Source: Gracilaria domingensis (lineage: Eukaryota; Rhodophyta; Florideophyceae; Gracilariales; Gracilariaceae). Taken from it: a DNA stretch of 64,000 nt. The stretch covers positions 118,074-182,073 of the forward strand of contig VCMS01000203.1 of the NCBI GenBank assembly GCA_022539475.1. The letters run 5' to 3'. The notes beneath the pieces were generated by a model, which searched no databases, was not told where the DNA came from, and saw only the letters and a program-made list of their open reading frames with translations. The position numbers and the translations under genes are program-made. Below are positions 386 through 55,676 of the stretch, in pieces (within the stretch, counting starts at the first letter, position 1; each line of letters opens with the position of its first letter).

Positions 386-3300
386 CTAAACTTGATCCAA
401 ATCCACTCGCATTTTCTTGCCAGGCTTCGTCTCAGACACGTTCGGAAATGCCGGTCTGTCACTGCGAACAAAGTTCCGAACACCGTCCTTGTACAGAACC
501 AAGTTTGTCTGCACTATGCGCGCCGCTTCTTCCGCATACTCGTGGATAGGCAAGTCTGACACATCATGCCCAAACGGATTCGACAGTTCTTCGGCCCACT
601 TTACCGTGCCAACAACGCCATACGCAATGAATCCGATCCACAGAATCGTAAGCCAGCCGCTAGATTCCACCAGGCCAAGAGGCAACAACAGCCCCCAGAT
701 CAACAGGAATATCTTCAGATGCTGCACGTATCCGTACGGCATGGGGATGTTGATCAGTTCTTCACATTCCGTTGCTTCGTTCTTCATCATGTAAAGGTAA
801 TACATAATGCACCAGTGCTCGTCATAGCTCACAGGGTCTACTACATCTTCTGCGTTTCTCCAGTGGTCGCTCCTCACGAGATAATGATGAAGCACGTCCA
901 AGCAGTAGTCAGCGTGATCCACAGATTTCAGCAGTTGTTCAGTGTCCTCCTCACTCAGTAATTTTCGATACATCTCTCGACAATCTTCTTTCCGAAGTCT
1001 TGCGACAAGCCCCACCGAGAACGCCGCGATGTGCGCCGCAATCCTCTCAAGATCCTTCTCGTGCCATTCATTCCCACAGTAACTTTCGAAAATCCTGTTA
1101 GAAACCATTCTCGTGTGCCCCAAAATAGTACTCCATATTTGAGTACCCTTCACGTAACGACCGTGGCTTTCATACAACCAGAAACCGAGTAAAAGGAAAA
1201 GCGCAAATCCAATGTACTCTTGAACTGAACTGTCAAGGGCGATTCTTGAGCAGAACCACAAGCCACAAAGGTCCTCTATTTCGTCGTCAAACGGGAACTC
1301 CTTCGAAATCGCCCAGGCCACCAGTATCGCCAAGCTAGTATATATCACAACACCAGCAGTCTCAAACGGTGAGAAGGTATGTCGTGCTAGACTTAAAATC
1401 TGACGGAAACCTGATAGACGGCTCTTTCTCTTCACCTCCATAGCCTGCTTTTCGGAAGTTTCTCTCCAGAAGGACTCAATAGCCGATGGTCGGACAAATT
1501 CATGTCCTCGTCCAGAGTAGTTCCTCTGAACAAACAAAACATCAGAGACGACTCGGTTGGCCATTTCATTGAGATCGAGGTCGTTCAGATCCGTCCCAAA
1601 AGGGAATTGTAGTTCCTTAGCGATTTGAAACATGCTGACATGGGTGTTAGTGCATGATATCCACAAACGAACAAAAGAATGGAGATAACTCACCCCAAAA
1701 CTCCGTAAGCGATAATTGGTACCCATAAAATTGTGAACCATCCTGCGCAGTTAAAACTCAAAAGGTCAGAATCTGGTTTCCACCTGTAGATTAACATCCA
1801 CGTTGAAGAACAACTTACCTGAAAACTCAGCAAGCGCGAAAGGCAAGACTAAGAACCAAAGAAAAATAAAACTGTTGAGCAATACAAGGAATCCAGGAGC
1901 GATTTCAAACGATCGCAAGAACTTGGCCTGTCGAATCATCTTCTCCAAACCAACTATCTCAAACCTAACAAAAGATCCTTTGCTTCCGAGCACCACAGGG
2001 CGCTTTAGGTGTTCCGGATGATGCATATAGAGCAAGAGGTACGACCTTAAAAGATCCACGCAGTGGCTGACCATGCTTTCCGCGCATTGGATTCTCGCGA
2101 TATCAGAGAATGACAAAAGGCCCTTGATTTCCCTTAGATCTCTCGAACCACGAAGTTCGCTCTTCAATACCAACGGAATAGCTGCGATGTGAGAAAGAAT
2201 TCTCCGAAGATCCTGTTCGTGAACTGTGCCTTCGGAAAAGAGCGTTAGAAAATGTACGCTGAGAGTATGACAAGACGAACGAAGTCGAGCACCCCAGATG
2301 GTTCCAGCGGCGATGTAGCGCACAAACGCGGCTCGAACGAAGAAACCTAGTAGCATGAACGCCGCGAAGGATATGTATGTAGCTACGGTAACATCCACGC
2401 TGAAACGAGATTGCCACCATCGCGCTACGACTGACTTATCGCGAGCAAGGTAGGATATGAGCGTCGCCACCACAGTCCACACAGTAACATATAGCAATAC
2501 CCACCACGGGACAGACTGGATAAGATGGGCATACAGTTTGGGCTTCATTTTCTCGTCTTCGAGGCCTCTAAGTTTGAACGCAGGCTGTTGACCGTAGAAG
2601 CGAGGACCACCGTCTTCCTCCTGAAAATGGGCCAGGGTGTACTGGCTTTTCACCACTTTGGCATCAACAACATGTCCAATACTTGGCTTGGATTCGTTAA
2701 CTTCTTTCCGAATTAGGCTAGTGGGACCCCAATCAACGCTCTCAACTCCTTGGATGACAGAGCTTGCAGCATGGACACACATGTTCTCAAAAGGAATGTC
2801 GATGGCGTCTTTCCCATACGGATCAACAAGCTTTGCCGCAATCTCCTCGAGCCCAAGAACGCCGAAAGAAATCAGAGGAGCCCATAGAATAGTGAAGAAG
2901 CCCGTGATCGGCGTCATTGCGAATCGCAGAAGCAATAACCAAAGAACTGTGAATAAATGCTGATGTTTGGTATAACTCGCTATAACAGGAAATCGTTTGA
3001 CACCAAGAGCGCGAGATATTGTCTCACGAATTAACTTCACTCGTGCTATCATAGCGTATGTCACGGAAACAGTCGCCCGTTTGTTCGGAATGTCCGGGTG
3101 TTCGAATCGATCTGTTGAATCCTGAAGAAGGACATAAGCCTCGATTGTATTCAGCACATGATTAATACAATTACGACTCGAATTCAGAGCACGGTGGTCT
3201 TCTTCTGATAGAAGACCATGGTTTTCCAGAACCCTATACTTTTCCATTTCCAGTAGCGTATCACGGAAGCATAACGGGACCTGTACGATGTGAGCAACTA

Positions 3301-6169
3301 TGCGTTCCTTGTCCTTTGGGTGGAAGAAGCCATCATGGAAGCTCTGTACCATTTCAATCGCAAGATTTCGGAGGTGCATCTCCATGTCAAAGATAAGCAT
3401 CGCTCCTTCCTCGTACCGCCCGATTGCATCCGACGCTCGGAAACTGAGGATCATAAACAAAGCAAACCCAATGTTTGCTAATACTGAAACTTCAACGTCA
3501 AGTGGGCTACACCAGGCATTGCATGTATCCCGTTTCATTCTGTCCCAGGCGAATGATAACCCATACGAGGCGAACACAGCAACAACTGTCCACGCTGTGG
3601 CTAAAATCATACTCCGAGCAGAGACTGAGGGCAACGAGTTGAAAACCTTCAAAACGGACCCCAGGAAAGAAGGGTTAACATCTTCATTTTTGGACTGCAG
3701 ATACTTCCAGATGCGTTTAAAGAAGTTGAGCTGCGGGGTCTTCATTCCTCCCTCAAGAATGACATTAGTTTCTTGTTCGTCTTTGGCTTTGAACGTATCC
3801 CGAGAATATTCACACTCGTGTACAAATGCCCTTGTCCCATTTCTAGTCGCGTGGTACACACCGTGAATCGAAGTTCGGATTTCCTGACACAAAATGTCAA
3901 GGGGGATGTCTTCTCGGTCAAACCCAAACGGATCAGAGAGATTGCTTCCGATGTTGATAAGGTTAATAACAGAGTAACTGATAGGAATAATGTAGAGAAA
4001 TGCCAAGAACCCATTGAAACTGACTAGTGAGAGCGGAAGCAGAGCAAGCCAAAAGAATGTGAACACCTTCAAATGAGTAGTGAAAGATTCACACATCGGA
4101 AACTTTCGTAGGGCGACGCAGTGTGCCATTGCTCCTTCTAGTTCCCAGATAGTGTATCCCATATTGTACACACTTGCGGTCATAGGCGATTCATTAACCT
4201 GAGTCAGGTGAGCATGAGCGCAATCCGCTGTGTTCAAATACGCGAATACAACATCAATACCATGAGCGAAAAGATCGTCTGCTTCGTCGAACGCAGCCTT
4301 ATCTTGCGCGGAGAGTATGTCGTTGAGCTCCTCGGTATCTCTACTGAAACGCAGCTTCAACTTAGCGGCAAAGGCTAGTGCTGCTACATGAGAAAGCAGT
4401 CGCTCCCGATCTCTTTCGTGCCAGAGCCCCCGTTTACATGCCATAGCCAACTGAAACGCAAGTTCTTCAATGCCCACCCTGATCTTACTTTGCCACAACT
4501 GGAGAGCCTGCCAATATCGCCCATATGCGTCATTCAACCAGAAACCCAATATCAAGAAAATACCCAAACTGACGTAAGAAGTGATCGATGAATCAACCGG
4601 AACATAGATGCACCACCACCTGCACTCTCCGTCGACGTTTTCGTTCCGTTGATCCCATGTGAAGAACAGGACGAACGAACTCCACGCAATAACGACAACC
4701 AGGTAGAGAAGAACTCCTTTGCTGAGTTGACCAATGCGCACAGCAAGAAGGCGTCGCAGCAAGCTTCGCGGAGATTGTTTCTCGTCATTTTGGCTTTGCA
4801 AAGGTGCCTCAAGCCAACTGGGAGTATCATGTTCCGTTCGGATCAATGATTCGAAGTCAAGCTTATCTCGAAAATGAGCATCAAGCACCGTGAGCGCCGT
4901 CCCTGCTGCGAGGTGATTAAGCTTAACATCCTGCATATCAAAGCCAAAAGGATCACTCAAGGCCTCTCCAATAGTGAACAACATGCCAACACCATAAGTA
5001 GTGAGAACAGCCCAAAGAATGGTAAACCTGTTCAGAAAGAAAGTAAAGAAACAAGTAGAAGGAAAAGTGGTGAGGGTCAGTATCCATAAGATCCATCGGT
5101 TCCCATGTGTTCGCTCGCACACTTACCATCCACTGCTTTTTACGAGAGCCAAAGGAAGGAAAAACATCCAGATGTAGAGAAATATCTGAAGATGGGTGAC
5201 GTATCCGAGCGAAGGACTTGATTTGGCAATCTTAACAAGGTTATTCGCCCGGGAATCAACAGCATCCATGAGGTCTAAGAGGAGATATCGAATTCCCCAT
5301 CCGGCAGGAGTCTTGTCTACTGGAACATCAGCAAAGGCATGTCCATCATCCTCGGCGGCGCTAGAGTACGCCCTGACAACCCTCATGCAGTGGCAATGCA
5401 TCATGTCGGCGTCGAGAACGTCGTCGAGATCGTTGTCGTGTAGGATTCCCTCAAGTTGCGCGCGTTCACGCTCCCCACGGAGTGCCATCTTCAAAGCGAT
5501 TGGGTACGCAATCAAATGGGCTGCGATTCGCGAAATATCACCATCATGCCATGTACCCTGCGGATAGTTCTGCCTGAACTGACGCGCAGTTTGACGAAGA
5601 TTGCCGCCAATGTAAGTCCAATGCACTTGCGCTTCGAAATAGCGGTTTGACGCCTCGCGAATGAAGAAGCCGAGCAAGACGAACAGCGCCCATCCAACAC
5701 CATACGAAACCGAAGATGAAACTGAGAGCCTTGAGGTCCAAAACTCAGTGGTGAACCAATCCAGTTCCTTGTTTGCTAGACCATATCCAATGAGAGTGAC
5801 AATGGTACTCCAAACAAGTTGGAAGGCGAGGATGGTATAAGGAACCGTTGTGAGGACGGCGTAGAAAGAAGAGTACTCCGCCTGACTGATTTCGGGCGGT
5901 CCCGAACCTAGCTCGCCGCTAACCTGCGCGTTGCGGAGTCGAAGGGCGAGCGCTCGGTGACTGAAGGACTGGTAACCGACTGCGCGCAACGACGGTTCGC
6001 TGTGGGAGGAGGGATTGTCAGGGTCCATCTCCGCAGAAAGGTCTGGTGAAGTCCGGGCGGGGGCGGTGAGCGCGGAAGCGTGTGGGTGACTTTGCGGATT
6101 ACCTTCGTTCATGGGTTGAGGGTCTGGCAGGCGAGACTCCGGCTGCTGAGGCTCCGGAGGCGCTGCCAT
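386..6169 (-). CDS. five-module tandem bestrophin (putative single-chain anion channel)
   Basis: Predicted membrane channel of the bestrophin/UPF0187 family, with five complete modules in one chain. Exons on the minus strand are 6169-5127, 5027-1819, 1742-1694 (49 nt) and 1634-386; the sum is 5550 nt, 1849 codons plus stop. Introns are 99, 76 and 59 nt with clean GT-AG ends. The cytosolic His-x-x-Asp helix motif (HDGD, HERD, HPKD, HEQD, HEKD) recurs near residues 208, 551, 917, 1284 and 1624. The family Pro-Phe-Gly-x-Asp clasp (DPFGFD, DPFGFD, DPYGKD, FPFGTD, NPFGHD) recurs near 373, 713, 1083, 1445 and 1785. Each module also has the L-x-F...R-Y helix that corresponds to the pore helix; module 3 is the most divergent there. 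The start is the first ATG in frame at 6169; the N-terminal 95 residues are Pro/Ser-rich and disordered-looking. Known bestrophins assemble as pentamers of single modules, so a five-module chain could form one whole channel (inference). Confidence 0.88.
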
Positions 6170-11815: not shown

Positions 11816-12877
11816 TCAGCGCAGACGGCGCCAACCGCGGTTGCGGTTCTTCCGCACCTTGCGACGGATCATTCTGCGATACGAGCGCACCCTCATGGCG
11901 ATCATCACCGCGCCCGCGCTCTCGCACTTGTCGCCGTAGAAGGAACTGGTGATACCCACCTGCTCATATTTTCCGTCCACGCGCTGCACAATCGGTCCTC
12001 CCGAATCTCCAAAGCACGTCCCCGTCCGCCCGCGCTTCGGGAAGCCCAACGACGTGTAGCATATCTCCTTACGACGGTTGGTGGCGCCCTGAAAGCCCAG
12101 ATGGTCGTCACACACGGACCACCTCTGGAACAAAACTTTTGCGCGTCGCACGCGTTTCGGCTCGCTCTTCTCCGAGCCGCGTACGCCGTAGCCCGCAGCC
12201 TGAATGCGAGTGCCCGACTCTTTCGGCGGCTTTTCTAGCTTAATTGCGCTGTAAAAGCGATCGTCAATCTTCTCCTCCAGCTCCACCAACGCCACGTCGT
12301 TTGCATACGTTCCGTCGTCGCGGTACTTTCTGTGCACGAACACGTTCTTCATAAATATCTTGTTGCGAGGCGAGCGAAAGAATTTGGTCTTTGTAGACTT
12401 CTCCGCCACCAGTACATACGAAGCTGCAATGTCTATCTCAAAGCCCACGAAGCAATGCGCCGCGCTGAGAATGTACTTGCGCGCTATCACGCTGCCGGTA
12501 CAAGTCACCAACGACCCGAAGCTGTCCACCGCGATCACACGCGCCAGATGCTTGCGCAGCTTTGAGGGCACCCTCTTCCCGCCCACAATCAGTGATATCG
12601 GTTCGTCATTGTCGTCGTCTTCCTCGTCGTCCTCATCAGGCAGGTCGGACGGTTTCCCCAAAAACTGCAGAGCCACCTGTCGAGGCGGCCTGTCGTCTCC
12701 CGACGCCGCGAGTCGCGACAGCGGGGTGCGTGAACCGTCGTCGTCGCTGCTGCGGTCCGACGTCACGATTAAGACGTCATCTCCGTCTGCGGCATCTGCC
12801 GACGCGAACACCGCCTTCTGTGCGGCTGTTACGACAGCGAGTAGCGCCAGGAGTTGAAGAAAACGGCTCAGTCGCAT
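11816..12877 (-). CDS. secreted trypsin-family (S1) serine protease
   Basis: Single exon, 353 residues, ATG at 12877. Residues 1-18 form a signal peptide. A low-complexity acidic propeptide (Asp/Glu-rich around 78-92) leads to the activation motif IVGG (97-100). The catalytic triad is His141 (SAAHCF), Asp194 (NDVALVEL) and Ser292 (GDSGGP). The residue six before the serine, which sets specificity, is Gly286 rather than Asp, so trypsin-like Arg/Lys preference is not expected. The C-terminus is strongly basic. It is expected to act outside the cell or in the secretory path after cleavage of the propeptide. Confidence 0.9.
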   Translation of the reverse strand: MRLSRFLQLLALLAVVTAAQKAVFASADAADGDDVLIVTSDRSSDDDGSRTPLSRLAASGDDRPPRQVALQFLGKPSDLPDEDDEEDDDNDEPISLIVGGKRVPSKLRKHLARVIAVDSFGSLVTCTGSVIARKYILSAAHCFVGFEIDIAASYVLVAEKSTKTKFFRSPRNKIFMKNVFVHRKYRDDGTYANDVALVELEEKIDDRFYSAIKLEKPPKESGTRIQAAGYGVRGSEKSEPKRVRRAKVLFQRWSVCDDHLGFQGATNRRKEICYTSLGFPKRGRTGTCFGDSGGPIVQRVDGKYEQVGITSSFYGDKCESAGAVMIAMRVRSYRRMIRRKVRKNRNRGWRRLR

Positions 12878-13627: not shown

Positions 13628-15394
13628 TTATGACGTCTGAGATATCATCCGAGACAATATGAGAAGCTCCTTCTTGTCCTTTATTTCGTCCGTGATCGCC
13701 ATCCATGTGTTGTGCACCTCTTCATCCCCAATCTGTTCAACTTGGGCCAAGGCATTTGCAAGGACTGAACGTGCAGCAGCATCATTACTTTCATTGACCT
13801 CTTGCTGATAGAGCTCTATCGCCTTTTCTCTGTTCTGACCAACTCCGCTAATGCCGTGCCACAACACATACCCCAAGTTCAACACTGCTACTAATTTCTG
13901 TTTGCTACACAACAAGCTTTCCAGTAACGCTAACGCCTCCTCGCCGTTGCGCTTGATTATGGATGCCCTCTCCAGAAGCAAGCTGGCCAGGTTCAGCGTC
14001 GTCGCCTCCCACACGGTTCCAATACGTTTCATTCCATCCGTCATAATCCTACAATCGCCGCGGAATGGCAAGGGAATCTTACTCTTTCGGATATATAATG
14101 GTACCCATACCAAATCGTTCCGCACGCCGTCACGTACTAAAAGTTCTCGTAAGCGCTCCTCCGCTTCTCTCAGGTCGGATTCCCTCCCAGTTTCACCAAG
14201 TATTATGGCATACGCTAATGCCTTCGCTGATTCTGCTCCCGCCGCCAACTTGGAGCGAGCGCGCTTCACGATGAGCTTCAGGTCACGCTTTTTGAATCGC
14301 AGCAACGAAGCATATGCACCATACTTGTCGGTTTGGTTATGACGCTTGACATGATCCTTCATCACATCTATAACTGTTGGTAAGCACCATTTGTATTCTC
14401 TGATACCACTCCAAAACATACCGCAAGCTATAGCCATTCCAAATGAGTTCCCCTGGACAGCGTCTTCCAGACAGAAGGACACGGCCCTCCTATAGTCGGG
14501 GCCATAGAACTCATCTCCCAGCAACAACAGTTTGATCAACCGAGCATACGCGGCAGGCGCACCGTAGAGTCGAAATGCGCGCTTGTAGAGACGTACTGCT
14601 CTCAGTCGATTACGCACTTGCTCACAATTATCGTATATCTGTGCGAGCAGGACAAGAGCGCGTTCGTTTCTTTGTTGTTCGCAGGCATCTTCCAGAATGC
14701 GTACCGCTTGAACGACGTCGGCGTCATACTTCGGATGTGGATATGCCAATATCTCTGCCAAGTTGCACTTGGCTTCTATCAGGTCTCCCTTTTTGATGGA
14801 AGTTTGGTACCATTTGACGGCGTCCGGGAATGAACGACTGACGTTGCAGGTGCCATGGTGATAAAGCAGTCCAAGCGAGTTCATGAGGTGCGGATCTTTC
14901 GAGCGGCGAATAGCGTTGTTGTAGAGTTCCATAGCGCGTTCTTTCTGTGCTACCAGTTGCGGGGTTTTGAGAATAACTTCCGCAAGGCATTGGTCGATTT
15001 CAATGTCGCTTGTAAGTCGCAAAGCGCGTTCATATAGTTGTGCAGCAAGCACACCATCCTTCCTACATGCTATCCCGTCGAAAGTAACCTTTGCGAGGAG
15101 CTTGATCGTATCTGGGCATTCAGATGACCTGAGACTATGTTCCAAAAGCGGGACCACTCGGTGGAAATGAGCGCGAACGCCAGACTTGTACAAGTGGTCT
15201 GCAAGGTAGAACATAGCGTCTGCGCTTTCGTGCTGTTTGATGGCCCTCTCCAGTAGCTGTACGCCCTGCTCCGTGAGGCCGTATTCGCTTATCAGGAACT
15301 GTCCCAGGAGAACCATAGACGAGCAGTCATTGAACTCTTTGATCGATTGCTCGAACTGCTGGTAGAGAGCTGGTGGGAGCGAATGAGCTGACAT
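13628..15394 (-). CDS. Sel1-repeat protein
   Basis: Single exon, 588 residues, ATG at 15394. The protein is a run of helical Sel1/TPR-like repeats. Recurrent motifs include A-x-x-L-A-x-x-[LY], the block NSLGLLYHHGTCN and the A-V-K-W-Y-x-x-[AS]-I-K-K-G pattern. Such repeats form superhelical scaffolds that bind other proteins. No signal peptide or membrane segment is seen. The gene immediately upstream on the same strand encodes a paralogue with the same block order, so the two arose by tandem duplication. Confidence 0.82.
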   Translation of the reverse strand: MSAHSLPPALYQQFEQSIKEFNDCSSMVLLGQFLISEYGLTEQGVQLLERAIKQHESADAMFYLADHLYKSGVRAHFHRVVPLLEHSLRSSECPDTIKLLAKVTFDGIACRKDGVLAAQLYERALRLTSDIEIDQCLAEVILKTPQLVAQKERAMELYNNAIRRSKDPHLMNSLGLLYHHGTCNVSRSFPDAVKWYQTSIKKGDLIEAKCNLAEILAYPHPKYDADVVQAVRILEDACEQQRNERALVLLAQIYDNCEQVRNRLRAVRLYKRAFRLYGAPAAYARLIKLLLLGDEFYGPDYRRAVSFCLEDAVQGNSFGMAIACGMFWSGIREYKWCLPTVIDVMKDHVKRHNQTDKYGAYASLLRFKKRDLKLIVKRARSKLAAGAESAKALAYAIILGETGRESDLREAEERLRELLVRDGVRNDLVWVPLYIRKSKIPLPFRGDCRIMTDGMKRIGTVWEATTLNLASLLLERASIIKRNGEEALALLESLLCSKQKLVAVLNLGYVLWHGISGVGQNREKAIELYQQEVNESNDAAARSVLANALAQVEQIGDEEVHNTWMAITDEIKDKKELLILSRMISQTS

Positions 15395-15638: not shown

Positions 15639-17438
15639 TCACGGTTCGTGATCGCACGCGGCCGAGCGCCACTTCTCCTCGTTGCTCGCCGATATCAGCC
15701 GTCTGAGTTTACGCAGCTCCTCCTCATCGTCCTCTTCCTCTTCCACGCTTCGCCACAGTTTCCACGCCATCTCCGCGTTCCCGTTGTCCGCGTCCATGCG
15801 CTCCCCCAACGCGTTCGCCAGCATGGTGCGAGCCGAAGCGTCGTTTGTTTCCTTCACAGCGTCTTCCAGGAGCTGCATTCCTCTTTGGTACTCCTTTCCC
15901 ACTCCCCGAATGTCGTTCATCAAGATGTAAGATAGATTCAACGTCGCCATCAATCTAAGTTCCGAGCTCCTCATCTCCTCCAGTATCGTCACAGCTTCTT
16001 CCTCCATGCCCTCGAGTTCAAGGAGAAGACTAGCGAGATTCAACATTACCACGTTCTTCCAGCATGTAAACCTCTTCATCGGATTCGTTATGCAGTCTAT
16101 ATGTCCATCAAACGGCAATCCACAGGAGCTCAGTCGGAGATAAACCGCCGCCCAAACAAATGAATGCTCAGAATACTCCTGGATCGCCTGTGACCGAAAG
16201 CTCTCCAACGCGAGCAGCTTGTCATTATCAACCTCGCTTTCACTGAGCATTATCGCTTCAATACTTCGTACGTTTGATCTGTCAATTCTACCATTCAACT
16301 TTTTCAAGAACCTTTTAGCACTCTCTCTGCCACCGGGATATGCACTTAAGTCATGCCGCACCATCAACGACAGGCACCCATGTCGAATCCAGCGACCCGA
16401 GCACATGTGCAGTATGGCCTTTTTCGGATCTCGAACAGAATGATCTGTTCCACTCCATAGCAATTCCGCTAACGTTGTGAGGAACACGAAGTTTTTCGTC
16501 TTCTCATAGATATCCCAACAGAATTTATGCGCATGGGCATGGTCAGAATGCAAATGCTCATCACCTTCAAGAAGCATCTTCAGAAGTACTGCCTTCGTGC
16601 CTTCCGAATCGAAAAGAAAGGATGCGGTTTCGTAGAGGTGGATAGCTCGTTGAACGTTGATGCCATGTTCCAAATAAGTGTCCGCAAGTTCGAGCATTGT
16701 TCTTTCAGCGCGTTCATTCTCCAACGCATCTTCTAGCAGGCGGATAGCATGTTTGACGTCATCGTCGCTCGGATCATTTCCGAGCAGGAGGACGGCCAGG
16801 TTGTACATAGATGACGGGAATTTGGACGTCTCAATCGCGCGTCGGTACCACTTGGATGCCTTCTTGGGACACGGGTCGAGGTTGCAAGTTCCGCTGTGAT
16901 AAAGGAGTCCCAGGCCGTTCATCAACTTGGCATCCAAGGATTCGACGACGGCCTCTCTATACAGAGCGATTGCACGCTTCTTCTCCGACTTCAAATCCGG
17001 TGTATGGAGCAAGCTGTATGCCAAGTGTGCCTTGAGGTAAGGATCTTTGTCGAGCCTCAAAGCACGTTCAAACATTTGGGTGGCAACGAGAAGGTTCTTT
17101 GCAGTACCATTGCCATGGAGATAACACCGTCCCAAGTCACGAAGTACATCAGGACGCTCTTTCAGTTTCAAAGAACGTTCCAGCAAAGAGATACCCGCAG
17201 GGCAATCCTTGTCGCTGTTCAACATGTATCGCGCAAGACAGTGCATTGCGTACGGATCTTCGGCTTGTTTAACGGCTCGCTTTAACAACTGAAAGCCGCG
17301 GAAGCGCTGTGAGACGAAGTTTCGATCTAGGAGTAACAGTTGGGCGAGCTCTATCATGGCGTCGATATCGTTATATCGGCGCACCGCTTTCTCAAGAGCG
17401 CTTGCTTTCGCGAGCGTCTTTTCAGCGGTGGAAGCCAT
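15639..17438 (-). CDS. Sel1-repeat protein, tandem paralogue
   Basis: Single exon, 599 residues from ATG 17438 (MASTAEKTL). The frame stays open upstream to 17684, but that part is Pro/His-rich and looks like 5' UTR. Sel1-like repeats include NGLGLLYHSGTCN and A-S-K-W-Y-R-R-A-I, which align block by block with the neighbour at 13628-15394. The C-terminus has an acidic EEEEDDEEEL stretch. Likely a cytosolic adaptor; partner unknown. Confidence 0.83.
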   Translation of the reverse strand: MASTAEKTLAKASALEKAVRRYNDIDAMIELAQLLLLDRNFVSQRFRGFQLLKRAVKQAEDPYAMHCLARYMLNSDKDCPAGISLLERSLKLKERPDVLRDLGRCYLHGNGTAKNLLVATQMFERALRLDKDPYLKAHLAYSLLHTPDLKSEKKRAIALYREAVVESLDAKLMNGLGLLYHSGTCNLDPCPKKASKWYRRAIETSKFPSSMYNLAVLLLGNDPSDDDVKHAIRLLEDALENERAERTMLELADTYLEHGINVQRAIHLYETASFLFDSEGTKAVLLKMLLEGDEHLHSDHAHAHKFCWDIYEKTKNFVFLTTLAELLWSGTDHSVRDPKKAILHMCSGRWIRHGCLSLMVRHDLSAYPGGRESAKRFLKKLNGRIDRSNVRSIEAIMLSESEVDNDKLLALESFRSQAIQEYSEHSFVWAAVYLRLSSCGLPFDGHIDCITNPMKRFTCWKNVVMLNLASLLLELEGMEEEAVTILEEMRSSELRLMATLNLSYILMNDIRGVGKEYQRGMQLLEDAVKETNDASARTMLANALGERMDADNGNAEMAWKLWRSVEEEEDDEEELRKLRRLISASNEEKWRSAACDHEP

Positions 17439-17859
17439 GCGCGGAGACGTCCCACACGGTTGGGGATGGGTGGGGGGAGGGGGGGGAGGGGGGTGTTGAG
17501 GGAGAGAGGGCAGGGCACGAGTACCGACGGTACGCGGTGGAGCGTGGCTGCGGTTGCGGATGGGGTGAGAAAATGGAGCGCCTGCGGCGACGCAATGGGC
17601 AGCGCAAGGAGGGGGTGGGGGGCGTGACGAGATGTGGTGCTGCAGCGTCGCGGTAAACGGAGCGGCCGCATGTAGGACGACCACGTCACCAATGCCACGT
17701 CATGACTGCGCCAGCCTTACACGTGCATAATGTGTTAGCAGTGGCGTAGATCTCATGTGTTTATACGCCGCTGTATAAACTGATGTGCGCGTCCATCCGA
17801 CGACGTGCTGTACTTGTGTTTTCCTGACGACTCCTCAACCAAGTTGATTCGCGATAAAT

Positions 17860-25877: not shown

Positions 25878-28007
25878 TTATGCAGGGAATTCGAAACGTT
25901 TGGCTAAATAACAAGGACGCTTATATGAGATTTGAGGAAGCATAGTGAAACACAATTTACATCTTGAACAATATCTTTGCAGTTTTAGAGTTTCTGTCGC
26001 ACGATTGATTCGTTTAAGTCTTCTCTTTGACACAAGTGCTTTCCTTGCTTCTTGAATTGCTTGGTAAACATCGGGTCGTGTTGTTCGAAGTTTCTCCCTT
26101 TGATGGTAGAGAGTGAAGCAATTCACATGAAAGCCGTGCATGCACTTTGTGCAGGAGTACATCTTGTAACCTCCTTCTCTCTCCTTCGATGATAGATTGC
26201 ATAAGAGGCAGCGCACACTTTTTCTTCCTTCTGTCTCAAAAAGTAAATGTAGAGATTCGCATGATGCATTGCTTGGAGCCTCGCTAGTGTTCGAGTTTCG
26301 CGACGAAACACGTCTTCCTAGAGTTGCTCTTTGCTGTTTGTACCCCCCATGATCTTCCACCATCTGTATGATAAGCCTCTGTTTCATTGTAGAAATGTCA
26401 ATTAGAGCCTCTCCCGAAGTTTTAACGGCCTTCAAAAGAGCGTGTGCGTTTAGGATACTCGCGTCTAGAATGAACGTAAGAAGGCTCATTGTAACCCGCT
26501 GCTCTTTTCTGACCGTCGCAGCAGTAGATCGGAATTGGTCAAATCTGTCCACGCCGTTCATGAACAGGTTGTAGGCAACGACCATTGCTGGGACTTGGAA
26601 AGTTCTGCGCTGCAGTGATTCGTTTCCAGTCCATCGCTTTAGAGGTGCCAGTCCATGGACGCATTTGACTGCGTGATCGTCGGGAGAATGAATCGGTTTT
26701 GTCGGGGTGTCAAGCAAATCGTTCGAATAGAAAGTAACTACAGTGCGGTCTTTGAAAACAATAAAGCCAGCGTTGTCTGCGACCTCAACAGTATCGTTTC
26801 CTGTCTGAATCTTTTGGTACACTTGCACAAGACGCCAGTCTCCTCTTTTCGCATGCTTGAGGACTTCGATCGCTTCTTTCAACCTCGGTCTGTTTATACC
26901 GTCTACATTGTTGAAGCGCACTGCTCCTAGTATTCGACACTCCCCATCGCTCAAACGATGTACTTGTCGAGCAAGCAGATGACGTGTGTAGAAATTGTCC
27001 ATGACTACTAAACGTCGAAGAGTTTGTTGTGGATGCAGTTGGGTCTGATGGGCCATCTGGGCGCACCAAAGTGCGGACGCGCTTGATTTCTTTACCAACG
27101 AGCCATCTACAGTGCGATCGACAGCACCGCGTAGTTCACGAAACAATGTTGTATATCTTTGCAGTGGCATTTGACCCGTTTTGTTCCCGGAACTGTTGTC
27201 CTGGAAACTGTGAAGGTAAGCATGTGACCATCCAACAACTGCATAAAATCGTATACCGAATCTGACGGGTTTGCTCTTCATGTAAGAACGAGCTCCCGTG
27301 CGTCCTTTACATCTGACGGTGTTCTCTTCCAAAGAGCTGACGCCAACGGGTATGGCGAGAGTAGCGGCGATGCGTGCGAAATGTTCCAAAAGTTGGCGAC
27401 TATGCCATAACGGGTCAGAGAGGGCTACTTCGTGCTCATAGGAAGCATATATTTGCAGTGATGCTCGTATGTTCATGAACGTATCCCGGCTCAATACCTT
27501 TTTGAAGAATGGGATGCCAAGCAGATCTGATGTCGACCAGTAGTCACGGAGGCGATTGAGACGATGCAAAGAAGTAGCGAGCTCCAGACCCAGATAGGAA
27601 TACAGCTCGTCTATTCGTAGGGGCTTCATTCTTCTTCCCTGCTTCATAAGTGCTCTACTAGTCCAGGCCCTCACGCATTCCAGATACGACTCGTTCAAAA
27701 ACAAACTGAAGAGACCACGTTCCTTCTTGTGGGCATACGTTCTCCTTATTAGCGCCTCTTTGGCCAGGTACAACCCACTTTTCTCGCGCCATTTTGCACA
27801 GTATGGAACAGTCTTGTAGAGATCCATTTCCTCGGCCGCTCCAAGAGCTGTCACTGCAAACTCTTCCTCATCATTCTCGTCCCAACAGAATTCCCCCACA
27901 CCTTCAGCGTTACACTCCCGTGCGTTTGAAGATACTCCAGAGTCATCATTGGTTTCAGGAATGGCTGCATAAGAAGACACCTTGGATGAGCTAATGAAGA
28001 TATCCAA
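25878..28007 (-). CDS. piggyBac-like transposase
   Basis: Open frame of 709 codons, no internal stop. The frame has no ATG at 28007 (it opens with TTG) and stays open upstream to about 28100, so the true start or a first exon is unresolved. The core is the piggyBac DDE domain (DDE_Tnp_1_7). The first catalytic site reads SSLEENTVRCKGR, with Glu where Asp is usual. The second is VVMDNFYTRHLL and the third NGVDRFDQFRS. The C-terminus carries a Cys-rich zinc-binding domain (CLLC...YSCTKCMHGFHVNCF), as in other piggyBac transposases. Piggybac enzymes cut and paste at TTAA. The Asp to Glu change may impair catalysis. Confidence 0.83.
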   Translation of the reverse strand: MDIFISSSKVSSYAAIPETNDDSGVSSNARECNAEGVGEFCWDENDEEEFAVTALGAAEEMDLYKTVPYCAKWREKSGLYLAKEALIRRTYAHKKERGLFSLFLNESYLECVRAWTSRALMKQGRRMKPLRIDELYSYLGLELATSLHRLNRLRDYWSTSDLLGIPFFKKVLSRDTFMNIRASLQIYASYEHEVALSDPLWHSRQLLEHFARIAATLAIPVGVSSLEENTVRCKGRTGARSYMKSKPVRFGIRFYAVVGWSHAYLHSFQDNSSGNKTGQMPLQRYTTLFRELRGAVDRTVDGSLVKKSSASALWCAQMAHQTQLHPQQTLRRLVVMDNFYTRHLLARQVHRLSDGECRILGAVRFNNVDGINRPRLKEAIEVLKHAKRGDWRLVQVYQKIQTGNDTVEVADNAGFIVFKDRTVVTFYSNDLLDTPTKPIHSPDDHAVKCVHGLAPLKRWTGNESLQRRTFQVPAMVVAYNLFMNGVDRFDQFRSTAATVRKEQRVTMSLLTFILDASILNAHALLKAVKTSGEALIDISTMKQRLIIQMVEDHGGYKQQRATLGRRVSSRNSNTSEAPSNASCESLHLLFETEGRKSVRCLLCNLSSKEREGGYKMYSCTKCMHGFHVNCFTLYHQREKLRTTRPDVYQAIQEARKALVSKRRLKRINRATETLKLQRYCSRCKLCFTMLPQISYKRPCYLAKRFEFPA

Positions 28008-35492: not shown

Positions 35493-36740
35493 TTGTCAGT
35501 AACCGAGTCCTCTCGTTGTGCAGCACGCCCAGCCCGACTTCCCTGTGCCAAGACTTGTGCGCCTGGGCTTGTAGGGTCATTAAACCAACGAAACTCTTTT
35601 CCGTTCATTATCTTCTTTGCCTCGTCAAAGTCCATTTCGCCACCAAATCCACCCCTATAAGCATCACGACTGTCCTCTACAATTATGTTGTGTAGGAATA
35701 CACAGGTACGAATTACGATTGCTAAACCGTCTCTGTACCACCCGTGCAGGTCTGTCAAGTATTTGAAATCGTTTCACAAGTACACCAAAGGCTCTTTCAA
35801 CGTCCTTGCGTAGCTTTTCCTGCCAGGAGGAGTACCTTTTTTGTTTCTTGTTACCAGGTTCTTGAATCGTCTTCTGGACAAGCGCCCAATTAGGATAGAT
35901 ACCGTCTGATAGGTAGTACGGAAGATTAAAACGCCTCCCATTGATTTCGTATTCAAAGAGATGAGGAAACTCGCCTTTCATAATTGAGGTAATAGTAGAG
36001 GATGTGTCTAGTATGTTGATATCATTATTACTACCAGGTGATCCGAAGAACATGTGCCATATCCAGAGATCAGAATCTGCTATTCCTTCCAGAACTATTG
36101 TAGGTTTCGATTCCTTTCCACTATTCATGCCAGCCCAAGCAGTAGGACAGTTTTGCCATTTCCAGTGTTTGCAATCAATGCATCCCATACAACCTGGCAT
36201 TCCCCTGGAAGCATAGATTGACATAATGCGGCGTAGGTCTGCCTCAGTAGGCTGTCGTAAGTACTCCGTCCCAAACTGTTGGATGATTGCCCTACAGAAT
36301 GCCCTCAAAGACTGTAGGACGCACGGTTCGGAGAGCCCGCAGTATTCATCAAGACTATCCGCTGCTACTCCATACGAAAGCATTCGTAGAGAGGGAACAA
36401 TTCGCTGCAAAGGGTGAATTCCTGTTTTTCCCAGTGCGTAAGATCTTCTTTTGAATATATCTCTTCCAGTGATTGCATCATGTATTCGCTGAAATAGGTA
36501 CCGCGACATGCGATATCTTCTTTCAAACTGGGAGTCATTGTAGGTTGGATTAGGTGAGAAGTAGTCTTTCATCAATCTTTGAAACGCTTCGTCGAAGTTG
36601 CGAGGCATGTTTGCGGCTTTTCCTGCCTTTGAGCCTCCTATGCTCTTTTCTTGGGAGTGGAAAACTGTGAAAAATGTTTGCAACGAGTTCAAGACAATCT
36701 CATCATCATCAGATGCATCACTGTCTAGTATAGTCTGCAT
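35363..36740 (-). pseudogene. PIF/Harbinger DDE transposase, one frameshift
   Basis: The frame from 36740 encodes an HTH-like N-terminus and the plant-transposon nuclease domain: first Asp in GCIDCKHWKW, second Asp in SDGIYPNWA, Glu in RKDVERAFGVLVKRF. Near 35725-35745 the frame shifts by one base. The expected C-terminus (IVIRTCVFLHNIIVEDSRD) is in the adjacent frame and runs to 35363. All three catalytic residues precede the shift. The 3' end overlaps that of the convergent Myb-like gene by about 130 bp. Confidence 0.78.
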
Positions 36741-40980: not shown

Positions 40981-43900
40981 ATTCCATCGGAGCACAACCA
41001 TCGATTAAGCCAGCAAACCCTGTACTCATTGAATCTGCAGATAACCATCGTACCCAAGAAAAAATATCAAGCAACGGAAGACATAAACATCTTACCTCAC
41101 GCTTAGCGTCACCATTTGAAACCCCCTCTGTTGGAGTACTCCTTGCACATGTATTCATCAAAGGCAGAAAATGTACGGCTCTGTTCGATAACGGTTCCGA
41201 AATCAGTTATTTGTCCAAAGCCATCTGCAAAAGCATGAAGATCCCAACCATTGACACTAGTTATGAAGCCGATATGGCCAAAGGCTCCATTACTGTGCTC
41301 CAAGAAACCCGGGAAGATGGAGTAGATATCCAGATTGAAGAACTACGAGAAAAGAGACGCTTCGCAATATGTGCATTATACGGATATGGCGTCATTTTAG
41401 GAAAAGACTGGCTATATGAATATAACCCCTATATCAACCACCGAACCAATGAAATTTCTTTTGTTCACAACTCCAGAACCATTTTCATCAAAGCAAACAT
41501 TAAAAAGAACGAAAAGTTAATTTCTGTGAACACAATCAAGAAGTCATTTCGAAGGAAGCTCCATGTATTTTTCGTAACACTTGGGCCTTCAAAAGAAGAA
41601 ACCTATGAACCAGCGAATGATCATGAAGTTAAAGAACTACTTGAAGAATACAAGGACCTATTTCCAGAGAAATTACCAAAAGGATTACCCCCTCACCGAG
41701 AACAAGATTTTCATATCAAGCTATCCCCTGAAGCAACACCTCAGAAGAAAGGCGTATATAGAATGTCAAATAAGGAGTTGAAAGAGCTAAAGAAGCAACT
41801 CAATGAACTTTTGGAACAAGGTTTCATTCGACCTAGTTCAAGCCCTTGGGGTGCCCCTGTTCTACTCTCAGCCAAAAAGGATGGAAGCCTAAGACTTTGC
41901 ATTGATTACCGAGCCCTCAATAAGTTGACCATCAAAAACAGTTACCCTATTCCAAGGATTGATGATATTTTTGACCAGCTCCGTGGCGCAAAATTATTTT
42001 CAAAAATCGATTTAAGGTGCGGTTATCACTAAATTAGACTCTCGGATACCTCCATTCCCTTGACTGCATTCAGAACCAGGTATGGTCACTTTTTGAGTTT
42101 CTCGTCTTACCTTTTGGTCTCACAAACGCACCCGCAAGTTTCATGAGCTTAATGAACAATGTACTGAAAGATCACTTGGACAAATTTGTTCTATTGTACC
42201 TTGACGACATTCTGATTTACAGCAAAACTGTAGAGGAGCACCTGGAACATATCAGAAAAGTATTCGACCAGCTTCGCGCACATAAGCTGTATGGGAAGCT
42301 TTCAAAGTGCGAATTTCTGAAGAAGGAAGTTGAATACCTCGGGCATGTTGTTACACCAGACGGCATATCAGTAGAGAAACAAAAAGTGAAAGCCACCAAA
42401 AATTGGGAAACACCGAAGAATAAGACCGATGTTCAAGCTTTTCTTGGACTTGTTAATTACTACCGACGATTCATTAAGAAGTGCTTCGAAATATCAAAAC
42501 CACTAACCGCTCTGTGTGGAAAGAACCCATTCAAGTGCGGAGGGGACCAAGAAAACGCTTTCACAAATCTGAAAGAAGCAGTTTCGAGTACACCTGTGCT
42601 CCGTCATTTTGACCCAAAGCTGCCTATCATCGTAACCACGGACGCATCTCAGTATGCCCTAGGAGCAGTATTGGAACAAGTAGAAAACGGTATTGCCCGA
42701 CCTGTTGCATTTCATTCAAGAACCTTGAATCCAGCCGAGCAACGCTACGCGGCCCACGAGCGAGAACGTCTTGCAGTTGTAGACAAGTTAAGAGTTTGGA
42801 TAGTCTACTTACATGGACAACGCTTCAAAGTGCGTACAGATCATTTTCCACTGAAGTATCTCCAAACACAACCAACTCTTTCCCAACGTCAAGTAAGATG
42901 GTTTGAAAGGATCGTTGAGTTTGATTTCACTTTCGAACCAATCAAAGGAAAATCCAACATAGTTGCAGATGCTCTCTCAAGATATCCTAAGCATGTTGAA
43001 GATCCGCTGGCTAGTAACCTCGGTCTACTAGATGAAGCAATCTCCAGATCCAACCAGTTAAATTCTTTATCTCTTATTGGTGAAATATCTAAGAAGGATA
43101 TGCGCGCATTCACAGAAGGATACAAGAATGACAATGAATTCTCTGGTGCTTACAAGAACCCTGAACTCCCATTTGAACGAAAAGAAAATCTTCTCTACTT
43201 CAAGAATAAGCTGTGTGTACCGAGTGGAGAAATCAGAACTAAGGTTTTATTCGAGAATCATGATCTCCCTTCGTCAGGACATATGGCATTTAAGAAGACA
43301 TTAAGAAGAATTTGGAAATCTTACGTTTGGAAGAACCTGAGAAAGGACGTGTAAACGTACACGAAGACATGCCACAAGTGTCAAGAGACGAAGCCAATTA
43401 CCAAGAAGCCCCATGGATATCTCCAGCCTTTAAAACCCGCATTGAAAAAGTGTTCTCAGATCACAATGGATTTCATTACTCCACTTCCACGCACCAAGTC
43501 CGGAAACAGTGCCATTTACGTCGTAGTTCATCGCCTTTCGAAACTTATACGTATCATACCCACAACCAAGAATGTTACGGCTGTCGAAACAGCCCAGCTA
43601 TATCTCGAGAATATCTATCGTCATCATGGACTTTCTGATGCCACAGTATCCGATAGAGATTCGATATTTATCAGTAAGTTCTGGAAGGAAGTATTCCGAT
43701 CACTTGGCACAAATTTGAAGCCATCATCAGCATATCACCTACAGACTGATGGACAAACCGAAGTAATGAATAAGAAGATCGAAGAAATGATCCGATGTTT
43801 TGTCAATTACAGACAGAATAATTGGGACGAGCATCTCATTCAATTTGAAGTTGCTTACAACTCTTCAGTCAATTCTACCACGTCATTTACTCCCTTCCTT

Positions 43901-46843: not shown

Positions 46844-48257
46844 TTGAATCGTCACGTGAGTCACTCACACAAAGATGTCTGGAGAGCGGGAGGCTCTGGT
46901 TCGAACAATCTGCGTCCTTCCCATCCCGTTCACGAAGAGCCGACTGTTATGGACAGCACAACATGTCGACCGGACATTAGTGAGGATCTCTTAGACGCGC
47001 ACGAAACGGATGAGGAGCAATTCCCCGACTACGTTTCTGCAGATACGCAACCAGATGATGTCCCTCAAAACCAAGAGCGTGATGTGTCTTGGGATGTAAT
47101 GAACTTCTAAAAATCCTTTTTAGCTCATTCTGTGCCTCTATTTGCGCAATTTGAGACTCTGCAGCCTAGCCTGGAGACTCCGCACCCAGCATCGATTGAT
47201 CTTTTGACATACTGTGGAGAATTCTGTGTGTTATCTGGGTCTGCGGAGTTGCTGTCCACAACAGTTACGCGATTAGAGTCCAGGGTACCTGCACCATATC
47301 GGTTTGTCTCACACGAGTTTGGTTCTGCGAAAGAGCTTGCCACATATCTTTCTAAGTGGAGAAAGTCTTCCGTGGTAAGGGAGGGTGGCATCAAGCGCTT
47401 ATTTCCACAGACTTTAGAGTAAACAAGACTGGAGTCTTTCGTCCATTGTTGCCTGTTCTCCTCGAGCTCTTGAGTGTTGCAGGAGGAGTTACAAAAATAG
47501 AGGATTACTCAGAGGGAACGGTTGGTGGAGAACGAAGGTTTTCGTCAATATGTGACTCAAAGGCTATCAAAGAGTACACGAAAGATTTGAACTCAACAAG
47601 AAACGTTTTGGTTTTCGACTTGTACATCGACGGCCATATTCTTTCGAACTCCGGCTCTCAGAGTGCAAATAACATTCGTGTTCGTCTTTCAAACGTCAAA
47701 AGCGGATCAAGACAGTTGGTAGAAGTAGGAATTGCAACTTTTCTCGATCAAACTCGTGATAAGCGCGGTCCTACTCATATGAAAATGAGAGGCTGACCCT
47801 TCTGCAAAGATTTCTGTTTCTTCTCGTGTCCGATGTCGCCCGTTATTCTCATATTGGCCTGTTAGTTGAAGACGTGCGTATATCCCCCAGGCTTGTTGCT
47901 CACATTGCGGATCAGAAACAAGAGCGTGCATCGCTTTGTCTGAAAGCAGATGCCGGTTTCGCGGATTGCACTCCTTGCCTGATGGTTTCAGGCGCTCAGG
48001 TGTCACAATTTCAATTAGATTCTGAAGTCAACATGTTTTCCAGTGGAAATCACTCCACTGATGTCTCTGTATATGGCTCTGAAAGCGAGCACTCCCATAC
48101 TTCGTTGCGAAGAAAGAAAGCAGCAGAGAACAAACTCGAACTGTTTCAGATTCAGACATCAGGGAACGGAGCAAACAACAGAAACGTCCCTAGGATAGTA
48201 TCGTTTGTGTTTCCGGAACGCTATGTCAAGAGGCTAGAATGCTATTTTGTGGATTAA
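46844..48257 (+). pseudogene. decayed transposon-like gene (unrecognised, possibly KDZ/Plavaka-related)
   Basis: Plus-strand coding blocks in changing frames. The first, 46844-47063, is acidic; a 45-nt intron (47064-47108 or close, acceptor CCTTTTTAG) would join it to 47132-47422. A frame change near 47375-47425 leads to the best block, 47430-47796. That block contains LVFDLYIDGHILSNSGSQ and RLVEVGIA-type spacing, which recalls the core of KDZ/Plavaka-type transposases. Another one-base change near 47780 leads to 47800-48257 (RLVAHIADQKQE, CTPCLM). The family link is from general pattern memory and is weak. It is probably no longer functional. Confidence 0.45.
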
Positions 48258-48886
48258 ATCGTTAAAAAATGTGCAAAGAATTGAATGTACGGCATGTGCA
48301 AGCCAAAAGAAAAAATTCTTGGATACCATACTTTCATTTATTCAAGCAATACTACAGAATTTGTAGAATGAGTGAAAGCGGACATAATTGCTAGTTCACC
48401 TCCATGACATGAAAGTTTTTGTACCTAGTATACTCAGACGGATTAGGTGGTAGCTCGATCTGGAAGCTACCAACGGCACTTGCATACTTGTCGATTGCAA
48501 ATAAACACAAATAATGAATGTAAACTAACTCTGGCTAGTACAACATTCATGAAATGGTAGTTGCGCACATCCATTCCCCCAACGCTTTTCTACCTCCATC
48601 ATCCCGGCAACTACTGTATCACCTCAATCAAAGTAAAGCACCTTCATCTCCTTCCTCTACCTCCACATCCGCGAATGATAGCGTACGAAATTCTTTCCCA
48701 TCATCATTCTCAACCGTTTCCTCTTCATCCTCTACAACATCCTCTCAGCTCCACTTCTCCTCGTATCCAACAACACTGCTCCCTTTCCACACCGGCTTCG
48801 GAACAGTCCTGAACCCAACCCGTGTCCTCTTCTTACTATCCCCTTTTCTTTCTTGTTCTCCACCTTCGGCTGAATTTCATCCTCTT
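48258..48886. other. intergenic; no gene
   Basis: AT-rich up to about 48.55 kb, then C/T-rich on the plus strand, which is the 3' flank of the minus-strand coiled-coil gene. The long plus-strand frames here are shadows of its purine-rich coding strand. Confidence 0.5.
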
Positions 48887-49438
48887 CTACCCCACACTCC
48901 TCGGTTGGATCGGTCTCTTCTCGCCAACCTTCCTCTTCAGACCTCTCTTCCTCACCAATTCTTTCTCCATCACCTCATCCGCCCCAAAACTATCCGTCGC
49001 CGGTACAAAGTCTCTCGCATCCTCGTCCTCGCTTCCGATGCACACTCCTACCCCAACACCGTTCACGATCTTCGTCTTCGGCGCCGGAGTTACCGGCGTT
49101 CCCTCCACACCCCCTACCCCGCCCTTCTTCCTCCCATTCACCTCCTTCGAGCTCCCCTCCAGATTCTCAATGCGTTTCATCATCTTCTTCTGCTCCTCTT
49201 TCATCCCCCTCAGTTCCCTTACCACGAACCCTGTCACCTTCTTCGTCAGTCGACCCACGTCCTCTCCCATGCGCGTCCCCATCGCTCCGGCACACCCCAG
49301 CACTGCAGTGGCCCACCAGTCCAGCTCGTCCTTTTCTTCCTCCTCCTCGAACACACTCTTTAACTTCTTGTGCGACCGTACCCCTTCGTCCGACTCCCAC
49401 GGCCACCTAATGTTCGAACGCGAATCGTCATCGCTCAT
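48887..49438 (-). CDS. small coiled-coil protein, unknown function
   Basis: Single exon, 183 residues, ATG at 49438 (MSDDDSRSN). An acidic segment (FEEEEEKDELDWWATAVLG) is followed by a Met/Lys-rich helix (MKEEQKKMMKRIENLEG) and basic low-complexity sequence ending in Arg/Lys. No domain is recognised. It is divergent from the membrane-protein gene at 50079, and the two share a 640-bp spacer. Confidence 0.5.
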   Translation of the reverse strand: MSDDDSRSNIRWPWESDEGVRSHKKLKSVFEEEEEKDELDWWATAVLGCAGAMGTRMGEDVGRLTKKVTGFVVRELRGMKEEQKKMMKRIENLEGSSKEVNGRKKGGVGGVEGTPVTPAPKTKIVNGVGVGVCIGSEDEDARDFVPATDSFGADEVMEKELVRKRGLKRKVGEKRPIQPRSVG

Positions 49439-50078
49439 GGTCGCGTTGGTAGAAGATCTGGTAGAAGAGCAAAAGGGATATCGAAAGAAGAGAAATCAGA
49501 GAAGCCGAAAAGAACAGAAATCGCTGATCGTTCCTTCGCAAACCGATCACGGTGTACCAAGGGTAGACGCTTTCGTCCCATGACACTGTAGTACCGCCGC
49601 ACCCGCTCATATCCGTCCAACCTCTGCATCGCAATTATTTTCATATTTACTAGCACAATTCTGCACTTCTGAACACTCTCTATGCTTCTCATTCTCCATG
49701 TTCTCCCAACCGTTGCGAGAAGGGCGTCCCTTTTCATACATGGTTCATGCCAGTAGTATATGAAATGAAATCCTACCACTACCATCATATCATGATTCTT
49801 CCGTCCTCTTCATCGCCCTACATTTTACTCTTCATGTACTCCGTCTCTTCATAGCTTTTCCATCACAGAAGCTAAGTTCGCCACTCGTTTATGAACACCT
49901 TCTTCACTTCAAATTTACAAGCCTTAAAGGAAACAAAACATAGATATAGCTCCTTCGATACACCTCTTTATAGGTAATATCTGCTCGTTTCGTTCTCAAT
50001 AAATATATCTCCTCCTCGCCCCTTCTTTCTTCATTTCTTCTCCTCTTTCCTACCTACTCACAGGCAGCAGAGCTCACA
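49439..50078. promoter_or_regulatory. divergent intergenic region
   Basis: Spacer between two divergent genes. It ends with a long C/T-rich stretch directly before ATG 50079, typical of promoter or 5' leader sequence. No repeat or gene seen. Confidence 0.4.
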
Positions 50079-51270
50079 ATGGCCTTCCAAAACACCCACA
50101 AGGTATCGCATGTACAGCTTCGCAACCAAACTGCTCTCATACCTATCCATCTCAACGCATTTCCCCATAGGACATACATCACCTTTGACGACTGCCTTCA
50201 ACTGAAGTACGACGTTGACACCGGGGAAGCCACGGTTCGAGGAGTCCAGACCCTTTTATCCCCCGAACTGCTGGATGAACTCAGTGATGTTTATGACATA
50301 CCTCACGAAGTTTCAATTCATGACCGAATCCTTGAACATCCTCCCTTCTTCCACACAATTGGGAATTTTTCAGAGCTACCCAACTACATGTCAGAGGCTC
50401 GGTCTTATTCACATAATCCCCTGAACATGCTCTCGCTATCCTCTCTCTTGGCATTCTCCCTCTTCGTTTCAGTAGCCATAGGAGCTCTCTATGGGATTAT
50501 AAAGCCTCTCACAACACACGCTCTTCTCTACGATCGCTCCTCCCGCCGAACACAACTGGGATTCACCATCCTGTACAGCATGCTCGAAACTATGTTTCAC
50601 ATTATTCTGTTTGAATTGGCATTCTCTCTTCACGCCACAAGATATGGTAGACTCGCATATGGTCCTATGACTCCGTCGCACACATCCAGCACCGTTTCGG
50701 CACTGAGGAATAAATACCTCGGCATGGGCATCGGTGGGCTTATCGTCCTCAACCTCTCTATCTTCGTCACCTATCAGCTCCGTCCTCCTCCAATCGATGT
50801 CATGGATTCTCTCAAAACTGCATGTATTTCCTTCTTCCCCGGCGGTTTCTTCTTCGGCTTCTTCACCATTCTCATCAACACATTTGGGATCTATTTCTCT
50901 ACAAAACATACGTTCAACAACATAGTTCAGCTCTCCAATCGGGTGGTATACCGGAGAAGAGGGCTGCCGTTGTATTCTAAACTCGTTCCGGAAAGCTTTG
51001 TTCCTTCAGGATTTCCTGCTTTCTATCAAACTTTTTCTGAGCAGAGTGGTCCCAGTTTTCTTCGCACACACACTCTCCGAGTCTTTGGACCCCGAATCCT
51101 TTGGTTCGTACAGAGGTATCCCGCCCCTCCTCACAAACACCTTGTTCATTGTACTACTTGTATGCTCCGGAGTCGTCAAACACGCAACAAGAATCAACGC
51201 AAAGCGATACTTGTGCGCCATTGGTGAGCACCCTAGACCCCCGACACAACATCTACTGCCTTCTGGCTGA
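50079..51270 (+). CDS. five-helix membrane protein, unknown function
   Basis: Two exons, 50079-50945 and 51010-51270. The 64-nt intron (donor GTATAC, acceptor TTCCTTCAG) is phase 0 and swaps into the frame that carries the last hydrophobic helix; the product is 375 residues. A cytosolic-type N-terminus of about 115 residues is followed by helices MLSLSSLLAFSLFVSVAIG, TILYSMLETMFHIILFELAF, MGIGGLIVLNLSIFV, FPGGFFFGFFTILINTFGIY and LLTNTLFIVLLVCSG. No signal peptide. I recognise no family. Without the splice the frame ends at 51227 in low-complexity sequence. It converges with the ParB-oxygenase gene. Confidence 0.55.
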
Positions 51271-51547
51271 CGTATTCACCAAGTGCGAGACAAGTAGTAT
51301 ACGAACATAAGTACATAACTGATACATGTTTCAACTAAACAGAATCTCTTCTCTACAAACATAGTTCCCACATATTCATGACGCTCTCCAGGATTGAAGT
51401 GTTTGGTATGGTATCCTATCCTACCCTTCAATCTTGGGTGGAGTCGTCGCTTCCACAATTCTTAAACTTTCTCTCGATTCACAAGATCATTTACTTCGAA
51501 ACTATATTCGACACATAGATTACTACAAAGTTTCATCACATATTCAC

Positions 51548-55327: not shown

Positions 55328-55676
55328 GGTTCGTCGAGGCTTTCTCACCTTTCGAGAGCGTCTCATTTGAACCTTTCTCAGTCCCCTCATATCCATTATA
55401 TGATGCCAGTGTGTGTGATATACACGAGTCCTGGTGTTCTTCAAATCGTACGTTTGCTCCCGTGAAGTTGCAACCGCTCGTGTTCGAATCTCCGCCCTTT
55501 CTCGCGTGAGCACAATGGACGCAACCACTCACGTTCAAAACGGCTGCAATGCCCACGTGAGCAGTGTGGGTACAGTTCCTGATGGTTATAAATGGTTGGA
55601 TCAATGTCTGATTCCGTCCTGGTTGACCACTGTCCCCGCCTTTCATCATCTTTGAACATCGCCCGAGCGCTGTGTG

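Follow-up and report, generated by a model that had tools for sequence, protein, structure and literature searches.

A five-module bestrophin gene of Gracilaria domingensis as a probable natural single-chain pseudo-pentameric channel

Can a single gene encode all the subunits of a five-fold channel in one chain? This question is raised by a locus on the minus strand (6169-386) of a 64,000-nucleotide stretch of the red alga Gracilaria domingensis (contig VCMS01000203.1; the whole stretch is called the window hereafter). Passages of two studies (PMC8496536, PMC6591409) describe bestrophins as pentamers of one-module chains, each protomer contributing four transmembrane helices to a channel with a single pore. 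The locus had been proposed, from its letters alone, to fuse five such subunits in one gene. We call its 1849-aa product W and its modules M1 to M5; P-numbers denote relatives from the protein database and C-numbers contigs of the own genome, which measures 77.9 Mb. On the sequence comparisons given below, a natural single-chain pseudo-pentameric bestrophin channel is the best explanation of this gene, and we consider it likely.

All five modules were recognised individually by the curated hidden Markov model (HMM) PF25539 Bestrophin_2, with 107.3, 121, 100.8, 104 and 137.3 bits for M1 to M5 (cut-off 27 bits), and the model matched the whole chain in five stretches (E 1.9e-161, 536.7 bits). 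The proposal of five bestrophin modules in one gene is thus borne out, no module having failed the module-by-module check. When 200 shuffled chains were scored against an HMM built from the modules, the best score was 2.6 bits. The modules of W are 23-30% identical to each other. None of them reached the cut-off of the animal bestrophin family PF01062 (24.2 bits), for which only M4 was listed at all (10.4 bits), and a PF01062 profile search of the whole genome gave no match, as was also the case for the controls; PF25539 is the fitting model. Judged by these profile matches, the modules belong to the bacterial/fungal bestrophin family and not to PF01062. Bestrophin_2 was the only Pfam family above cut-off in the 1849-aa chain, and no rhodopsin domain was found. 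Among solved bestrophins, M5 matched 6iv3 best (E 3.1e-16) and 7pl9 at E 1.1e-13; we take PDB 6iv3, 4wd8 and others to be KpBest, the bestrophin of Klebsiella. Two motifs had been counted five times each. One H-x-x-D per module indeed lies in a shared H-x-x-D-x-x-R context, but the chain contains ten H-x-x-D in total, and Pro-Phe-Gly-x-Asp is found unchanged in all modules but M3, where PYGKD replaces it. After PFG (PYG in M3), the modules of W read x-D-x-x-D, and KpBest reads T-A-A-N-D. By homology, the chain would hold about 20 membrane helices; hydropathy gave 31 peaks at a loose threshold and no clean helix count.

The exact exon structure of the sequence-only reading also stood. Spliced from the sequence, the gene has four exons and three GT-AG introns, and its coding sequence is exactly 5550 nt long (Table 1). 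When M4 and M1 are compared, introns 2 and 1 occupy homologous sites to within a few nucleotides. Exon 2 alone is a single open frame of 3209 nt, beginning in the last part of M1 and reaching through most of M4, and the M1-M2, M2-M3 and M3-M4 boundaries consequently all lie inside one frame. The database entry of the same locus, P0001, has 99% identity and the label 'Bestrophin/UPF0187 [Gracilaria domingensis]', with no finer label. This NCBI model is 1859 aa long, with ten extra residues at intron 2; as P0002 and P0004 have SGWFT at this site, the 1849-aa model is supported over P0001.

Relatives were collected in three protein-database searches, in which scoring was confined to the 8000 candidates with most shared words, so that far tandem bestrophins in other algae could escape. 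The first search (eligible length about 1017-3235 aa) gave 25 rows, in which modules were counted with an HMM made from W's own modules. All 25 long relatives carry PF25539, and none has more than five modules, although lengths up to about 3235 aa were eligible. Five modules were found in P0002, P0003, P0005, P0006 and P0021, with Gracilariopsis and Agarophyton among the holding genera, and in P0008; the six matches of P0005 represent five modules with M5 split in two. The full-length chains W/P0001, P0002, P0003, P0005, P0008 and P0021 always have five, down to 35% identity to W. Among the named rows, the genera holding the pentad are Gracilaria, Gracilariopsis and Agarophyton, all Gracilariaceae.

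To assign positions, profiles were trained on W, P0002, P0008 and P0021 and applied to 123 of 127 proteins, with P0001, W's own locus, also set aside. This test set gave 196 segments of at least 150 columns. Each of the 191 non-control segments was assigned to a single position, and no margin among them fell below 74.8 bits; in the five bacterial single-module controls (P0123-P0127) the margin was at most 10.3 bits. Among the module strings of the 123 proteins, 12345 occurred 12 times and once more with M5 split, 1234 ten times, 2345 and 23 twice each, 12 once, 25 once (P0041), and 45 12 times and once more with M4 split. M1 alone was found in 78 proteins, three of them controls, and in one further protein with M1 split, and M2 alone and M5 alone in one control each. 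In the contig census (51 rows, M1-only rows without a partner being excluded), rows were joined on equal contig size alone, for which chance equality is possible (10729 also occurs for P0003); 14 of 33 contigs had all five positions, some with only the last part of M1, and 19 had subsets. The M1 exon was also present in 10 of the 14. Across the proteins compared, the five modules thus keep their number, their order and the identity of each position. A search at two-module length gave 16 rows, 15 of which are fragments colinear with the five-module chain. The remaining row, P0041 (638 aa, 28107-base contig), matches weakly over two short stretches, assigned to M2 and M5 (margins 7.7 and 11.8 bits), a two-part match unlike the others that perhaps represents another bestrophin architecture.

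How old is the fusion? A tree was calculated from 54 rows, for which 11 chains supplied 49 modules, the own genome two single-module genes and bacteria three proteins, and a second one after removal of the long C87 branch. In both, each position forms one clade at 100/99 or better, which indicates that all five modules were already joined when these paralogues diverged. For each position sampled from both chains of a pair, W groups with P0002 and P0008 with P0010, and the chains were thus inherited whole. As far as sequences can tell, the fused architecture is real and old. For the order of duplication, only a group of M2 and M4 emerged (92/80, then 95/84) and the remaining branching was weak; a simple doubling of modules found no support in the trees.

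On C160 the own genome holds another gene in which the five positions follow each other in order and which looks intact in an unspliced reading; intact genes with two to four modules were not found in this genome. Furthermore, C62 and C87 are single-module bestrophin genes, of which C62 is close to the modules. C62 is sister of all modules at 97/82 in the full tree and at 87/36 without C87, and a placement beside M4 was not rejected (p 0.292). Since support drops and the M4 placement stays acceptable, C62 could be either an ancestor or a released module.

The modules also differ from each other where the pore would be lined. For KpBest, passages of PMC6591409 and PMC8496536 give a neck of I62, I66 and F70 and an aperture at I180, and report that an exchange of I66 to Phe favours Cl-. 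A three-level hydrophobic neck on helix S2b is present in all five modules of W (placed by motif): W160/V164/F168 in M1, L502/L506/F510 in M2, F869/M873/F877 in M3, F1235/M1239/F1243 in M4 and F1577/L1581/F1585 in M5. In the relatives, counted together with the training sequences, the first level is Trp in 86 of 88 M1, Leu in 25 of 27 M2 and Phe in 29 of 31 M3, 23 of 29 M4 and 30 of 32 M5 modules. Specialisation by position had been proposed before and agrees with the five position clades and these position-specific neck residues. Of the suggested differences in pore helix and clasp, the neck part stood, but a calcium clasp is unsupported, given the match to the bacterial/fungal family. Phe is absent from the middle level of W's modules, which have V, L, M, M and L. 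As this resembles the Na+ channel KpBest, cation or weak selectivity would be as likely as anion selectivity.

The linkers between the modules of W are 28, 52, 50 and 18 aa long. In P0002, P0003, P0005 and P0006 they measure 28-35, 48-53, 47-50 and 17-18 aa, with 6-33% identity to W, and in P0021 40, 42, 48 and 19 aa. Between W and P0002, modules are 58-73% identical, whereas linkers of near-equal length are 18-31% identical. Such retention of length with loss of sequence is as expected of a tether.

We propose that a single chain would fold so that its five modules together form one pseudo-pentameric channel, each of M1 to M5 occupying its own place in the ring in a constant order and all of them lining one pore, with the ring probably closing in cis. 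The neck would then consist of three rings, W160/L502/F869/F1235/F1577, V164/L506/M873/M1239/L1581 and F168/F510/F877/F1243/F1585, and would be asymmetric. Gating may be of the KpBest kind, without the animal Ca2+ clasp. It appears likely that the protein is a natural pentameric ion channel made of a single polypeptide of five-fold pseudo-symmetry, which Gracilariaceae inherit as one unit and in which every place is specialised (asymmetric neck W-L-F-F-F), much as are the four repeats of voltage-gated Na+ channels.

Several observations weigh against this proposal. At the neck, the middle level of M4 is Thr in 10 rows and Ala in 4, 19 of 88 M1 modules have Leu at the third level, and the aperture residues (W, A, V, L, Y) are not clearly conserved in an alignment that is gappy there. 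The linker lengths of P0008 drift (63, 32, 48, 25 aa). In the own genome, where introns and true breaks were not distinguished, C11 has all five positions spread over several frames, C403 carries M2-M5 in interrupted frames with no M1 found in the fetched stretch, C238 has parts of M2 and M4, and C130 has M5 alone; we read these four as decaying copies. Among transcripts, no in-frame complementary DNA (cDNA) reaching M5 was seen, the transcript-type records P0004 and P0114 both being incomplete. P0004 leaves the frame in the micro-exon region, before M5. P0114 (254 aa, labelled complete ORF, i.e. open reading frame) aligns with residues 60-295 of W and ends inside M1, so that it would be without the last part of this module. 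Finally, P0008 is only probably one unspliced frame, as judged from the many rows of the same source that start or stop at intron sites.

The incomplete transcripts bear on the possibility that the chain is an artefact of gene prediction or assembly, neighbouring single-module genes having been read as one. It would agree with splice sites that were read from sequence, with the unseen cDNA into M5 and with the short M1 record P0114. The open frame of exon 2, however, reaches from M1 into M4 across three module boundaries, and the 1816-aa P0008, on a 6448-base contig, is continuous over all five modules. Concordant gene models exist in three named genera. P0004 (GEZJ01002761, a prefix that presumably marks a transcript assembly) runs in frame from M1 to M4 across the sites of introns 1 and 2, crossing the first three module boundaries, and its tail resembles W exons 3-4 in another frame (local score 28, versus 13 and 20 in the two other frames). 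The many M1-only rows might also be taken for separate genes. Yet among rows P0046-P0122 (n=77, including P0048, which covers part of M4-M5), 71 have an M1 match that stops at columns 247-253 of the M1 profile; of the 77, 41 have no residue beyond the match and the others 1-114. As the matches end where intron 1 lies, these rows are read as first exons and not as single-module genes. On the exon 2 frame, P0008, the M1-row ends and the transcript-type records, separate genes were judged unlikely, and an artefact is scarcely credible.

If the fused chain is real, it might nevertheless assemble in trans, from several chains or together with single-module bestrophins, five being a coincidence of gene growth. 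The genome does hold single-module genes on C62 and C87, and near-constant linker length alone cannot separate cis from trans. Repeat number would usually be expected to drift in tandem fusions, however, and here each full-length chain has five modules even at 35% identity to W; the linkers of 18-52 aa in W favour neighbours in cis. Assembly in trans is thus unlikely. Cleavage between the modules after translation, giving five subunits that form a heteropentamer, would fit the weakly conserved linker sequences (6-41%) and the specialised positions, but we know of no precedent for a cleaved polyprotein among bestrophins and regard this as very improbable. We therefore retain the single-chain ring as the preferred reading.

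Besides the bestrophin gene, the window contains a protease-like ORF, Sel1-repeat ORFs, transposable elements and a region of strong strand asymmetry, which are listed with the exons and introns in Table 1.

Table 1. Exons and introns of the five-module bestrophin gene, and other features observed in the window.
Feature	Position	Strand	Description
Exon 1	5127..6169	-	N-terminal tail (aa 1-98) with the start codon; M1 except its end
Intron 1	5028..5126	-	GT-AG, 99 nt, within M1 at the SSG-W junction
Exon 2	1819..5027	-	M2 (aa 450-760) and M3 (aa 813-1127) complete, flanked by the end of M1 and most of M4
Intron 2	1743..1818	-	GT-AG, 76 nt, within M4 (FSG-W)
Exon 3	1694..1742	-	49-nt micro-exon of M4
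Intron 3	1635..1693	-	GT-AG, 59 nt
Exon 4	386..1634	-	M5 complete (aa 1512-1833) with the stop codon, preceded by the end of M4
Trypsin-like protease ORF	11816-12877	-	PF00089, 95.3 bits
Two neighbouring Sel1-repeat ORFs	13628-15394, 15639-17684	-	perhaps a tandem pair
Transposable element	25878-28007	-	DDE_Tnp_1_7
Transposable element	35664-36740	-	Plant_tran
Transposable element	42143-43354	+	reverse transcriptase/RNase H ORF
Strong strand asymmetry	48001-56000		GC skew -0.34 to -0.17 over 8 kb

KpBest (PF25539), which in 6iv3 provides the best solved relative of M5, shares the neck helix and the PFG motif with W, and its neck (IIF) is without Phe at the middle level as in W's modules, in contrast to the IFF of animal anion channels. 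KpBest has one module per chain and forms a homopentamer, whereas W has five different modules in one chain. The animal bestrophins BEST1-4 (PF01062) are described as likewise pentameric channels with a three-level hydrophobic neck; they belong to another Pfam family and have Ca2+ activation, as well as Phe at the middle neck level, where W's modules have none. A natural fusion with a bestrophin domain also occurs in the bestrhodopsins of unicellular algae (PDB 7pl9), described as one bestrophin domain plus one or two rhodopsins per chain and a pentamer of chains. Bestrophin-like channels of algae further include the BSTs of the CO2-concentrating mechanism (Chlamydomonas BST1-3, diatom BSTs), and passages of one study (PMC11142338) report that red algae are without BST orthologues of this clade. 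W seems to differ from these in having no plastid-like N-terminus, and its acidic N-terminus hints that it may not be plastid-located.

Single-chain forms of four-fold channels are classic. The voltage-gated Na+ and Ca2+ channels are natural single-chain ring channels with repeats specialised by position; they are four-fold and of unrelated fold, whereas W is five-fold, and to our knowledge no single-chain form of a five-fold channel is known. Our literature search, which covered titles, abstracts and some passages, with subscription papers mostly outside, found no description of a fused multi-bestrophin chain. If the single-chain reading is true, W would be an asymmetric bestrophin whose stoichiometry is fixed, and the contribution of each single place to gating and selectivity could be tested by altering modules singly. 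It would also be a case in which a homomeric ring became a fixed-order heteromer through gene fusion.

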